DNA of 64,000 nt from Mycolicibacterium baixiangningiae (GTDB taxonomy: Bacteria > Actinomycetota > Actinomycetes > Mycobacteriales > Mycobacteriaceae), in NCBI RefSeq assembly GCF_016313185.1, contig NZ_CP066218.1:124001-188000 (forward strand), written 5' to 3'. Shown in pieces: positions 48,414 to 52,945 of this stretch. The number at the start of each line of letters is the position of its first letter. Position 1 is the stretch's first letter. The position numbers and the translations under genes were made by a program. The notes below the pieces were generated by a model. It worked only from the letters and a program-made list of their open reading frames with translations, was not told the origin of the DNA and did no database searches.

Positions 48414-49973
48414 TTGGCCGCTCTCTCCCTGCTGCTGGCGCTGCTCGCGGCCACCGTTGTGCTGGCGCCCCTGGCCCAGCGCGTGTCGATTCCGTACCCG
48501 GCCGTGATGCTGGTGTTCGGTCTGGCGCTGGCGCTCATCCCCGGCGTCCCGGTGTTGTCGCCGAATCCGGAGCTGATCCTTCCGCTGGTGCTGCCGCCGC
48601 TGCTGTTCGCCGCCGCGCGGCGCACCTCGTGGCGGGAGTTCCTCGACAACCGCCGGCCCATCGCGCTGCTGGCCGTCGCGCTTGTCGGGGTCACCGCCGT
48701 CGCGGTCGGGGCGGTGCTGCACGCACTGGTGCCGACCGTCCCGCTGATCGCCGCGCTCGCCCTCGGTGCGGCGGTCGCCCCGCCGGATGCGGTCGCCGCC
48801 ACCGCCGTGGCGCAGAAACTCGGCATACCGCGGCGGCTGCGCACCATCCTCGAGGGTGAAGGTCTGTCGAACGACGCGACCTCACTGGTGCTCTACGAGG
48901 TGGCCGTGGCGGGCACGATGACCGGCGCCTTCTCCGCCTGGGGTGCGGGTGAGGCACTCGGGCTCGCCGTCGTCCTCGGCGTGGTGGTCGGTCTGGTCAT
49001 CGCCGTCATCACCCGTCGGCTGATCAACAAGCTGCCGCCGCACCCGGCAGGCAGCGGGCTCGTCCTCGTCGTCCCGTTCGCGGCGTACGCGGCCGCGGAC
49101 GCGCTACACGGCAGCGGGGTGATCGCCGTGGTGACCGTGGCCCTGGCGATGAGCCGCTACGGCGACACCGAATCATCGCAGACCCGGCTGGCCACCGGGA
49201 CGACCTGGGAGATCATCGAGTTGCTGCTGACCGGTTCGGCATTCGCGTTCGTCGGGCTGCAGATGCGCGCCGTCGCGGACAGCATCGACGCACCGCTCGG
49301 GGAACTGCTCGTGCAGGGGCTGGTGCTCACGCTGGTGGTGATCGTCGTGCGCTTCCTGTGGATCTTCCCGGTCGCTGCCATCGACGAGCGGTTGCACCAG
49401 CGCAAACAACACGTGGCCGAACCGATCGGCTGGCGGGAGATGACCGTCTCGTCGTGGGCGGGGATGCGCGGCGTGGTGACGTTGGCCGCCGTGCTGGCGC
49501 TCCCACCGAACTTCCCCGAACGGGAGCGCCTGGTGTTCTTCGCGTTCGTGGTCATCGTCGTCACCCTGCTGCTGCAGGGGCTGACGCTGCCGACCCTCGT
49601 CCGCCGACTCAAGGTGCAGGCCTCACCCGACGAGGAGGTCGACGCCGTCCAGGACCTCATCCGGCGCGCCCGCGACGCCGGCCTCAAACGGCTCGACGAA
49701 CTGGGCGACCAGGAGGACGCCGACCCCGACGTCCTCGACCATGCCCGGGAGAACGCCGACCGGATGTGGCATTCGGTCGGATTCGCGCCACCCGACGCCG
49801 AGTCCAACGAAGCCCACACCGACCACGCGATGACGGTCAACGCGCTCAAGGACGAAATGCTCGCGGCCGCACGGGAGGCCGTGGTCGAGGCGCGTTCCGA
49901 ATCGGGCACCGATCCGACGATCGTCGACCGGGTCCTGCGCCGCCTCGACGCCCGGGGCAGCCACCCCGAATAG
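48414..49973 (+). CDS. Na+/H+ antiporter, CPA1/NhaP-type
   Basis: 519 residues with about twelve membrane segments over the first 400 residues and the ion-binding motif in ILEGEGLSNDATSLVLY, plus AVAPPDAVAATAVAQKL and the conserved SSWAGMRGVVTLAAVLALP. The C-terminal 120 residues are an acidic/helical cytosolic tail (PDEEVDAVQDLIRRARDAGL). The TTG start at 48414 follows GGAAGGA. Likely exports Na+ or K+ in exchange for protons for pH and salt homeostasis. Confidence 0.9.
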   Translation: MAALSLLLALLAATVVLAPLAQRVSIPYPAVMLVFGLALALIPGVPVLSPNPELILPLVLPPLLFAAARRTSWREFLDNRRPIALLAVALVGVTAVAVGAVLHALVPTVPLIAALALGAAVAPPDAVAATAVAQKLGIPRRLRTILEGEGLSNDATSLVLYEVAVAGTMTGAFSAWGAGEALGLAVVLGVVVGLVIAVITRRLINKLPPHPAGSGLVLVVPFAAYAAADALHGSGVIAVVTVALAMSRYGDTESSQTRLATGTTWEIIELLLTGSAFAFVGLQMRAVADSIDAPLGELLVQGLVLTLVVIVVRFLWIFPVAAIDERLHQRKQHVAEPIGWREMTVSSWAGMRGVVTLAAVLALPPNFPERERLVFFAFVVIVVTLLLQGLTLPTLVRRLKVQASPDEEVDAVQDLIRRARDAGLKRLDELGDQEDADPDVLDHARENADRMWHSVGFAPPDAESNEAHTDHAMTVNALKDEMLAAAREAVVEARSESGTDPTIVDRVLRRLDARGSHPE

Positions 49974-49993
49974 ATTCACGCAGATCGCAACTC

Positions 49994-50022
49994 TTCTCAG
50001 CGCCCCGAGGCGCCGGTAGCAA
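49994..50022 (+). promoter_or_regulatory. Probable promoter of the sulfonate transporter leader
   Basis: TTCTCA (49994-49999), a 17-bp spacer and TAGCAA (50017-50022) place the start of transcription at or next to the GTG at 50030, i.e. a leaderless message. The spacer holds the inverted repeat GCGCC-CCGA-GGCGC (50000-50013), a possible regulator site. Confidence 0.5.
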
Positions 50023-50029
50023 TATCCCG

Positions 50030-50068
50030 GTGAACCGCGCGCTGTCCGACGACTGCTGTTGTCGCTGA
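50030..50068 (+). CDS. Polycysteine leader peptide MNRALSDDCCCR (cysteine attenuator)
   Basis: A 12-codon frame beginning GTG at 50030 encodes MNRALSDDCCCR with three consecutive Cys codons (TGC TGT TGT, 50054-50062) immediately before an Arg codon and TGA. Leaderless short frames with Cys tracts act as cysteine-responsive attenuators of sulfur genes in mycobacteria (established for M. smegmatis). Here it precedes a sulfonate/taurine-type ABC transporter by 38 nt, and a hairpin overlaps its stop. The logic would be that Cys shortage stalls ribosomes on the tract and opens the downstream translation start. Not tested for this copy. Confidence 0.75.
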   Translation: MNRALSDDCCCR

Positions 50069-50089
50069 AGCCTTCCCGTCCCCTTCAGC
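50064..50089 (+). promoter_or_regulatory. Attenuator hairpin after the polycysteine leader
   Basis: GCTGAAG (50064-50070) and CTTCAGC (50083-50089) form a 7-bp stem that overlaps the leader stop codon. CGAC/GTCG around the Cys codons can form a competing stem. A ribosome stalled on the Cys codons would change which forms, 20-40 nt before the permease start. Confidence 0.5.
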
Positions 50090-50106
50090 CACAGAAAGTC
50101 GCCACC

Positions 50107-50967
50107 GTGTCGGTCTTCGTCGATATCACCCCGGACGAGTCAGCCCTCGACGCGCCCGCCGCGTCACCGCGCGGCAAGCGGGGCGGACGGCTCACCCGTG
50201 CCGCGCTGCCGTTGCTCTCGCTGGCGGTGTTCTTCGGACTGTGGCAGCTGGCCGCGGTCAGCGGCGTCTGGAACCAAACCTTCGTCCCGTATCCGGCGAC
50301 GGTGTGGCGGGCGTTCCTCGACGTGTCCACCACCCACGACGGCGTCCGCGGCTATGGCGGCTACCTGCTGGTCGAGCACCTGTACATGACGCTGCGGCGG
50401 GTGCTGGCCGGTGTCGTCATCGGGGTGGTGCTCGGGGTGGTGCTCGGCCTGGTGATGGGGTCGGTCAGCTGGGTGCGCAGCGTGCTGGAGCCGTGGCTGA
50501 CCTTCCTGCGCGCGCTGCCTCCGCTGGCGTACTTCTTCCTGCTGGTCATCTGGCTGGGCATCGACGAGGCGCCGAAGGTCACGCTGCTCGCGCTGGCGGC
50601 GCTGCCACCGGCGGCCGTCGCCACCACCGCCGCCGTCCTCGCCGCGCCCGTCGGCCTGATCGAGGCCGCCCGGGCGCTGGGTGCCTCCCGCGCCGAGGTC
50701 ATCCGCGACGTCGTCGTCCCGTCGGCGCTGCCGGAGACTTTCACCGGCATCCGGCTCGCGGTGGGCATGGCGTACTCGTCGGTGGTCGCCGCCGAACTGT
50801 TCAACGGCCTGCCCGGCGTCGGCGGGCTGGTCAAGGACGCCAGTAATTACAACAACACCCCGGTCGTGTTGGTCGGCATCTTCGCCATCGGCATCTCCGG
50901 CCTGATCATCGACGGTCTCCTGCGCACGATCGAACGGCGCGCCGTCCCCTGGAGAGGAAAAGTATGA
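50107..50967 (+). CDS. ABC transporter permease, sulfonate/taurine (SsuC/TauC) type
   Basis: 286 residues with six membrane segments and the EAA loop as EAARALGASRAEVIRDVVVPSALP, plus FLRALPPLAYFFLLVIWLGI, all typical of SsuC/TauC permeases. The GTG at 50107 (MSVFVDITPDES) follows AGAAAG; a TTG at 50059 would run through the leader peptide. First structural gene after the polycysteine attenuator; the stop overlaps the binding-protein gene by 4 nt. Confidence 0.88.
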   Translation: MSVFVDITPDESALDAPAASPRGKRGGRLTRAALPLLSLAVFFGLWQLAAVSGVWNQTFVPYPATVWRAFLDVSTTHDGVRGYGGYLLVEHLYMTLRRVLAGVVIGVVLGVVLGLVMGSVSWVRSVLEPWLTFLRALPPLAYFFLLVIWLGIDEAPKVTLLALAALPPAAVATTAAVLAAPVGLIEAARALGASRAEVIRDVVVPSALPETFTGIRLAVGMAYSSVVAAELFNGLPGVGGLVKDASNYNNTPVVLVGIFAIGISGLIIDGLLRTIERRAVPWRGKV

Positions 50968-51989
50968 GGATCAAAGCCCTTGCCGCCGTGGCGGTCACCA
51001 TGCTCGCATTGGCGGGGTGCTCGGTCGACCGCTCGGGCCAGGATGCCGAGAAGCAGACGATTCGCATTGCCTACCAGAGCTTTCCGAGCGGCGACCTGAT
51101 CGTGAAGAACAACCGCTGGCTCGAGGACGCGCTGCCCGACTACAACATCAAATGGACGAAGTTCGACTCGGGTGCAGACGTCAACACCGCATTCGTCGCC
51201 AAGGAGGTCGACTTCGGTGCGCTGGGCTCGAGCCCTGTGGCGCGCGGGCTGTCGGCACCGCTGAACATCCCGTACAAGGTGGCGTTCGTCCTCGACGTCG
51301 CCGGGGACAACGAGGCGCTGGTGGCCCGCAACGGCAGCGGCGTCACCACGATCGCCGACCTGCGGGGTAAGCGGGTCGGCACACCGTTCGCCTCCACAGC
51401 GCACTACAGCCTGCTGGCGGCGCTGAGCCAGAGCGGGCTGTCGCCCAGCGATGTTCAGCTCGTCGACCTGCAGCCGCAGGCGATCCTCGCGGCGTTCGAG
51501 CGCGGCGACATCGACGCCGGCTACTCGTGGCTGCCGACGCTGGATCAGTTGCGCGGCAACGGTAAAGACCTGATCACCAGCCGTCAGCTGGCCCGCGACG
51601 GTAAGCCCACCCTCGATCTCGGTGTGGTGTCCGACGAATTCGCAGGCGCCCACCCCGAGGTGGTCGACATCTGGCGCCAACAGGAAGCCCGTGCGCTCAC
51701 CGTCATCAAGGACGATCCCGACGCCGCGGCCAAGGCCATCGGCGCCGAGATCGGCCTGCCCGCCGACGAGGTCAAGGGGCAGCTCGCGCAGGGCGTGTAC
51801 CTGACGCCCGCCGAGGTGGCCTCGCCGGAATGGCTTGGCTCCGAGGGAAATCCGGGCAACATCGCGAACAACCTCGAGAGTGCCTCGCAGTTCCTCGCCG
51901 AGCAGAAGCAGATCCCGTCGGCTGCACCCCTGACGACGTTCCAGGAGGCGATCTACACCAAGGGTCTCCCCGGTGCCATCACCCAGTGA
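50964..51989 (+). CDS. Sulfonate/taurine-type substrate-binding lipoprotein
   Basis: 341 residues with a lipoprotein signal (MRIKALAAVAVTMLALAGCS; lipid Cys at residue 19) and the TauA/SsuA fold: IRIAYQSFPSGDLIVKNN, VDFGALGSSPVARGL, GKRVGTPFASTAHYSLLAAL. It delivers the substrate to the permease. Taurine is favoured by the TauA-like features, but alkanesulfonates cannot be excluded. It overlaps the ATPase start by 17 nt. Confidence 0.88.
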   Translation: MRIKALAAVAVTMLALAGCSVDRSGQDAEKQTIRIAYQSFPSGDLIVKNNRWLEDALPDYNIKWTKFDSGADVNTAFVAKEVDFGALGSSPVARGLSAPLNIPYKVAFVLDVAGDNEALVARNGSGVTTIADLRGKRVGTPFASTAHYSLLAALSQSGLSPSDVQLVDLQPQAILAAFERGDIDAGYSWLPTLDQLRGNGKDLITSRQLARDGKPTLDLGVVSDEFAGAHPEVVDIWRQQEARALTVIKDDPDAAAKAIGAEIGLPADEVKGQLAQGVYLTPAEVASPEWLGSEGNPGNIANNLESASQFLAEQKQIPSAAPLTTFQEAIYTKGLPGAITQ

Positions 51990-52752
51990 CGGCGCCATCC
52001 ACCTACGCGGCGTCTCGCACCGGTACGGCCGCAGCGGCTGGGAGGTCACCGCGGTCGGGCCCGTCGACCTGATCGTCGAACCCGGGACGTTCCTGGTGCT
52101 GGTGGGTGCGTCCGGATGCGGGAAGAGCACGCTGCTGCGGTTGCTCGCCGGCTTCGAAACCCCGACCGAGGGAACGGTGGCGGTGGCCGGTTCGGCGCCG
52201 ACCCCCGGAGTGACCGCCGGGGTGGTCTTCCAGCAGCCCAGGCTCTTCCCGTGGCGCACGGTCGGCGGCAACGTCGACCTCGCGCTGAAGTACGCGCGGG
52301 TGCCCCGCGAGCAGCGGGCCGGACGACGCGAGGAACTCCTGACGAGGGTCGGTCTGGAGGGCACCGCCGAACGGCGCGTCTGGGAGATCAGCGGAGGTCA
52401 GCAGCAGCGGGTCGCGATCGCGCGGGCGTTGGCGGCCGACACGCCGCTGTTGCTACTCGACGAACCGTTCGCCGCGCTCGACGCGCTCAGCCGTGAACGT
52501 CTACAGGAGGACGTGCGAAGGGTCAGCGCCGAATCGGGCCGCACCACGGTGTTCGTCACCCACAGCGCTGAGGAGGCCGCGTTCCTCGGTTCGCGCATCG
52601 TGGTGCTCACCCGCCGGCCGGGTCAGGTGGCGCTCGACCTGCCCGTCGACCTGCCGCGAACGGATGTCGACCCCGACGAACTGCGTCGCTCGCCGGAGTA
52701 CACGGAACTGCGCGCCGAAGTCGGCCGCGCGGTCAAGGCCGCCGCGGCGTAG
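51973..52752 (+). CDS. ABC transporter ATPase, sulfonate/taurine type
   Basis: 259 residues with Walker A GASGCGKST, Q-loop VFQQPRLFPWRTVGGNV, signature ISGGQQQRVAIARAL, Walker B LLLLDEPFAALDALSR and a switch His in VTHSAEEAAFLG. It energises the permease. The GTG at 51973 lies within the preceding gene (17-nt overlap). The stop lies in the first copy of a 26-bp tandem repeat. Confidence 0.9.
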   Translation: MPSPSDGAIHLRGVSHRYGRSGWEVTAVGPVDLIVEPGTFLVLVGASGCGKSTLLRLLAGFETPTEGTVAVAGSAPTPGVTAGVVFQQPRLFPWRTVGGNVDLALKYARVPREQRAGRREELLTRVGLEGTAERRVWEISGGQQQRVAIARALAADTPLLLLDEPFAALDALSRERLQEDVRRVSAESGRTTVFVTHSAEEAAFLGSRIVVLTRRPGQVALDLPVDLPRTDVDPDELRRSPEYTELRAEVGRAVKAAAA

Positions 52753-52800: not shown

Positions 52801-52816
52801 GTAGTTCTGCGATCGC

Positions 52817-52945
52817 TTAGACCGGCGGGTATGCCGGCGGCGGATAGCCGCCGCCCGGGCCGGACACCCCGCGCAGGCCCCAGGCCAGATAGCTGAAGAA
52901 GAATTCGATCTCGTCGCTCGCGTCGTAATCGGGATTCGGGTCCAT
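52817..52945 (-). CDS. 42-residue small protein (Rv0157A-like position)
   Basis: MDPNPDYDASDEIEFFFSYL, then AWGLRGVSGPGGG and a YPPPAYPPV tail: an acidic start, an amphipathic aromatic helix and a Gly/Pro-rich C-terminus. GGAGGT five bases before the ATG is a near-ideal ribosome binding site, so it is very probably translated. M. tuberculosis annotates a 42-aa gene, Rv0157A, next to the TetR gene Rv0158, and this gene sits next to the Rv0158-like TetR; the equivalence is from memory and position. Function unknown. Confidence 0.7.
   Translation of the reverse strand: MDPNPDYDASDEIEFFFSYLAWGLRGVSGPGGGYPPPAYPPV

Follow-up and report, generated by a model that had tools for sequence, protein, structure and literature searches.

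A conserved polycysteine upstream frame, probably a cysteine attenuator, ahead of a putative sulfonate/taurine-type importer operon in Mycolicibacterium

The window analysed here is a 64,000-nt stretch of the 6.18 Mb single-contig genome of Mycolicibacterium baixiangningiae, and the leader described below precedes a three-gene ABC transporter operon on its forward strand. The operon comprises, in order, a TauC/SsuC-like permease (50107–50967; GTG start; PF00528, 2.5e-29), a TauA/SsuA-like substrate-binding protein (50964–51989), assigned by profile searches and nearest solved structure, and an ATPase (51973–52752; PF00005). By sequence comparison, the solved structure nearest to the binding protein is a taurine-binding protein (E 6.5e-46). 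None of the three subunits reaches the cut-off of its equivalog model: the permease has 171.4 bits against 342 (NF007545), the binding protein 222.8 against 304.25 (taurine model TIGR01729) and the ATPase 209.8 against 357 (NF008421). On these similarities the operon is TauA/TauC/SsuC-like and encodes a putative sulfonate/taurine-type importer; an earlier note on this DNA had described a transporter for organosulfur compounds. No relatives of the permease were found in viral contigs. A possible frame of ~42 codons was seen by eye on the minus strand at about 52815–52945, between the ATPase and a TetR gene, and a similar sequence is present in locus L129.

An intergenic span of 133 nt separates the permease from the end of a Na+/H+ exchanger frame at 49973. 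It holds a short upstream open reading frame (uORF; 50030–50068), recognised from sequence and comparison and predicted to be leaderless or nearly so, which has 12 codons, starts with GTG (50030–50032), encodes (M/V)NRALSDDCCCR* and ends in TGC TGT TGT CGC TGA (50054–50068), with the adjacent Cys codons at 50054–50062 and the stop codon 38 nt ahead of the permease GTG. The frame and this distance agree with the earlier note, as does a 7-bp hairpin over the stop codon, a perfect stem between GCTGAAG (50064–50070) and CTTCAGC (50083–50089) that spans the TGA. A promoter-like sequence ending 7 nt before the GTG had also been proposed; the letters are as given, with a −35-like TTCTCA (49994–49999), 17 nt and TAGCAA (50017–50022, within the −10-like TAGCAAT at 50017–50023), but the two hexamers fail a sigma-70 consensus scan, which returned 0 sites.

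A genus search of 198 genomes drawn evenly from a larger group gave a permease match in 191, with 72 of these (own genome included; counted by hand from the list) at an identity of at least 79%, and a search of named genomes with the binding protein covered the best 80 of 249 loci. From 155 permease matches, seven with insufficient upstream DNA or with a distant or partial match were dropped, and the other 148 yielded 109 distinct leaders. A leader was classed as anchored when a GTG or ATG stands behind a GGTANNAAT-type motif. The script anchored 80, three of which (L040, L057 and L143) were moved by reading to the class lacking the uORF, leaving 77; the 29 unanchored leaders, minus L049 and L059 and plus the three moved, form a uORF-less class of 30. 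No Cys tract was seen in L049, and L059 has a CCR* ending behind a weaker promoter motif; both stand outside the two classes. Statistics on 66 distinct uORFs leave out L042, L045 and L086, all of which are counted among the 77.

Adjacent Cys codons are present in frame in 73 of the 77 promoter-anchored leaders from the 109 distinct upstream regions compared, the four without such a pair being L042, L045 (which keeps the uORF start and has lost the Cys tract), L047 and L141. The same holds for 64 of the 66 distinct uORFs, compared with 1.1% when uORF interiors are shuffled; read in either of the alternative frames, 0 of the 66 have such a pair. The N-terminal residues and the linker vary across relatives while the Cys tract is kept, the pattern that the earlier note had named as a check on its proposal, and the uORF itself is absent from 30 of the 109 leaders. 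A conserved Cys-bearing frame ahead of the importer operon is thus confirmed as a real feature, and, like polycysteine leaderless sORF attenuators, it is a short uORF with a conserved run of Cys codons close to its stop. We give hardly any credence to chance, or to conservation at the DNA level without a translated uORF; although TGCTGTCGCTGA is also a sequence that forms a stem, the frame-specific Cys pairs, the variable N-terminus and a start codon held at constant distance from the promoter element all argue against this explanation. As a side observation on codon usage, TGT makes up 76 of 158 Cys codons in the uORFs, whereas among matches to five neighbouring genes, taken from 80 loci, it makes up 14 of 221.

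How the uORFs end bears on a further alternative, in which the peptide or its termination would act, rather than cysteine supply, through arrest at Cys-Cys-Arg-stop or through reinitiation at the permease. The last Cys codon lies one codon ahead of the stop in 44 and two codons ahead in 10 of the 66 uORFs, and of the 73 leaders that have an adjacent Cys pair 48 end in CCR* (10 have CRR*, 4 have CCC* and the remainder others), as such an arrest could produce, but the final sense codon alternates between CGC and TGC and the bases GC-TGA are mostly unchanged among relatives, as an RNA stem would require. The longest Cys run also ranges from 1 to 4 across the 66 uORFs, the residues ahead of it vary, and in 58 of 66 the permease follows at a distance of 37–82 nt, which is a long gap for coupling, so that we regard an action of the peptide or its termination as very unlikely.

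Upstream of the promoter, a conserved 17-nt element (49974–49990; ATTCACGCAGATCGCAA in the window, ACTCRCGSTGAKCSCAG in its genus form) occurs at fixed spacing and is a possible binding site for an activator. Its distance to the uORF start is 38–40 nt in 74 of the 77 leaders that have one, and its distance to the permease start is 38–39 nt in all 30 leaders without the uORF, compared with 77 of 2140 at 38–40 nt in a shuffled control. TTC recurs near the −35-like position in 45 of 77 uORF leaders and 27 of 30 uORF-less ones (shuffles, about 6.75 of 107), and the GGTANNAAT-type motif recurs directly before the uORF start. Mycobacterial −10 elements follow the TANNNT rule. In the uORF-less class, all 30 leaders have an A at −11 relative to the permease start and 28 of them a T at −7, the positions at which the −10 for a start on that codon would fall. 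The motif is less well kept in the uORF class, where 50 of 77 leaders have the T and 21 of 77 the A, so its start site may deviate by 1–2 bases. In L071, a uORF-type promoter stands immediately ahead of the permease GTG. Since the spacing from element to start is the same in both classes, the start codon nearest to the promoter is the anchor in both, as a leaderless start predicts, and this comparison across relatives supports the leaderless uORF start proposed earlier. A genome-wide regulon of the element was also considered and dropped; besides the window, the own genome has three matches that carry two mismatches and 50 that carry three (6 in all for the reversed-pattern control versus 54), and by eye no sulfur gene stood at a promoter-like spot among the three best places.

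In the 30 leaders without the uORF, the same element precedes the permease start itself; one of these leaders (L152) carries an unrelated two-Cys frame farther upstream. On a quick permease tree of 114 rows (22 without the uORF), in which 46 of 111 inner branches are weak, the uORF-less class corresponds to five changes, at least three of them forced by well-supported branches. This distribution suggests that the attenuator was lost repeatedly, although gains of the uORF may have occurred beside losses, given the weak branches and the placement of the uORF-bearing L067 within a uORF-less group. We lean slightly towards regarding the Cys leader as a cassette that can be removed from between an activated promoter and the gene it drives; about five lineages of the genus (three by well-supported branches) would have lost it, leaving the promoter to start on the permease start codon and the importer to escape control by charged Cys-tRNA. 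If so, the genus would offer a natural experiment in the gain and loss of ribosome-sensed regulation, and the effect of the attenuator could be tested by comparing species that share the promoter but differ in whether the leader follows it.

The arms of the stop-overlapping stem were assessed by folding and by an anchored co-variation test on 63 leaders, in which the near-invariant GCTGA/TCAGY served for alignment only and the test was made on the variable pairs beside it; 16 of the 80 anchored rows, among them 11 uORFs running past the Cys tract, did not enter the stem tests. In 41 of the 63 leaders the GCTGA arm has TCAGY as its counterpart (TCAGY occurs in 7% of shuffled spacers), and in 22 this stem is missing. 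The variable flanking pairs match in 22 cases versus 13.7 after permutation (46 of 5000 permutations as high; 21 distinct combinations), a value to be taken as a guide because the leaders are related. The stem shows modest co-variation. RNAalifold on a 60-leader MAFFT alignment returned no stop stem and gave five pairs around the permease start, none changed on both sides; in our opinion this miss arises because differing loop lengths spoil the alignment. Just downstream of the stem is a Shine-Dalgarno-like (SD) AGAAAG (50093–50098), which recurs in relatives and is present in exact form in at least 40 of 63 leaders, 6–11 nt ahead of the permease start.

The competing hairpins of the earlier note were recovered in part, since a hairpin is predicted but the minimum free energy structure in the window is a single extended one, in which GCTGAAG/CTTCAGC continues into TTGT/ACAG and CGACT/AGTCG and so takes in the Cys codons together with the larger part of AGAAAG. 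This single-sequence fold barely beats shuffled sequences (z −1.45; 20 of 200 shuffles equally good). Base pairing between the Cys tract and the SD region was rejected as a general feature, being weak and beating shuffles in 16 of 63 leaders; TGT-N-GCTGA occurs together with TCAGC-N-ACA in 21 of 72. When a ribosome stall at the first Cys codon was modelled, the SD became more accessible, its mean unpaired probability rising from 0.388 to 0.512 (0.511 to 0.545 in shuffled controls); the gain was larger than in the shuffles for 47 of 72 leaders (Wilcoxon p 0.0009) and not larger for the other 25. The modelled gain is heterogeneous: in the window the unpaired probability rises from 0.35 to 0.75, and the gain is near zero in L033, L053 and L077 and negative in L036.

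The anatomy of the uORF, from general knowledge of amino-acid leader peptides, would also suit transcriptional attenuation, in which a stalled ribosome chooses between termination (intrinsic or Rho-dependent) and read-through. The 3′ side of the leader speaks against this, because a consensus scan of 49950–50250 found no terminator-like site such as an intrinsic-terminator attenuator would carry, no U tract follows the stem, and the 3′ arm ends 3 nt from AGAAAG. Transcriptional attenuation is unlikely in our assessment, though a Rho-dependent form may still operate.

We consider it likely that the leader is a cysteine-sensing translational attenuator of the sulfonate/taurine-type importer. Transcription would begin at the uORF GTG or 1–2 nt from it, as judged by comparison, and ribosomes would load at the 5′ end independently of any Shine-Dalgarno site. 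Given ample Cys-tRNA, the uORF would be translated quickly and the stop-codon stem would mask the permease ribosome-binding site, a masking that in the window may be extended by pairing of the Cys codons to the ACAG/AGAAAG region. When cysteine is scarce, a ribosome would stall at the Cys codons and occupy the 5′ arm, exposing AGAAAG and the GTG, and the importer would be made. If attenuation of this kind is correct, cells running low on charged Cys-tRNA would gain a route for scavenging organosulfur compounds, and cysteine attenuation would reach the uptake of organic sulfur, beyond the cysteine and sulfate genes named in the passages cited below.

Other leaders of the own genome were surveyed with the pattern TGYTGYTGYNNNTRA, which has 29 places (22 for the reversed-pattern control). 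An in-frame ATG or GTG within 75 nt accompanies 8 of the 29 and none of the other 21, and among those 8 the one in the window is, by eye, the only place whose start codon is preceded within 14 nt by a GGTANNAAT motif. Two further polyCys frames are present on the forward strands of other stretches of the genome, one ahead of a CysT operon (L254, 972–1064), which scores 56.2 bits with NCBIfam leader_Ms4533A (cut-off 31), and one upstream of a rhodanese gene (L255, 925–1014), which scores 58.6 bits with leader_Ms5788A (cut-off 45). The names of these models imply that both are known leaders, and their presence in the same genome indicates that this kind of control is at home here. No CCC-bearing short frame was found in the sulfite/nitrite reductase stretches that were inspected in this genome. 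In other genera of the family, a different polyCys leader of 24 codons precedes the same permease in 13 of 27 loci (L195, L196, L199–L201 and L213–L220), the other 14 being without this type; it has RR(L/I)AVD(L/F)CR and a terminal CC or CCCC, and ends 104–211 nt before the first aligned permease codon. Four of these 24-aa peptides weakly match leader_Ms5788A or cis_reg_atten, the best at 2.4e-07 and 3.1e-06, below cut-off. The window peptide resembles NF042933 (leader_Ms5788A), NF042937 (leader_Ms4533A) and NF042934 (cis_reg_atten) as a Cys-rich leader ahead of sulfur genes, but it matched no NCBIfam leader model up to E 10 when queried in extended form, as in-frame stretches of 22 and 28 aa made of the 12-aa peptide plus upstream residues (minimum 20 aa).

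In M. smegmatis, polycysteine leaderless short ORFs that act as attenuators were reportedly described by Canestrari et al. in 2020. The window locus resembles these attenuators in having a short uORF, predicted to lie at the 5′ end, with contiguous Cys codons near its stop, a sulfur/cysteine-related operon downstream and a predicted structure over the ribosome-binding site. Passages of Shell et al. (2015, PMC4633059) place Cys-rich uORFs ahead of cysA2, Rv0485/Msmeg_0932 and nirA, those of Smith et al. (2022, PMC9094748) mention six M. tuberculosis ORFs predicted to be cysteine-responsive, and parts of PMC13236596 and PMC9031893 describe the mechanism. Among the entries listed by full-text searches of the open-licence literature on polyCys leaders, no title or abstract concerned this locus. 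Measured against the known cases in these passages, the window locus differs in its operon, a TauA/SsuA-type importer in place of cysA2, Rv0485/Msmeg_0932 or nirA, and in the length of its uORF type, mostly 10–13 codons; its cysteine response is a predicted one. Taken together, the leader is real and conserved and is probably a functional cysteine attenuator of a sulfonate/taurine-type importer, of a kind already known and similar to that of M. smegmatis.
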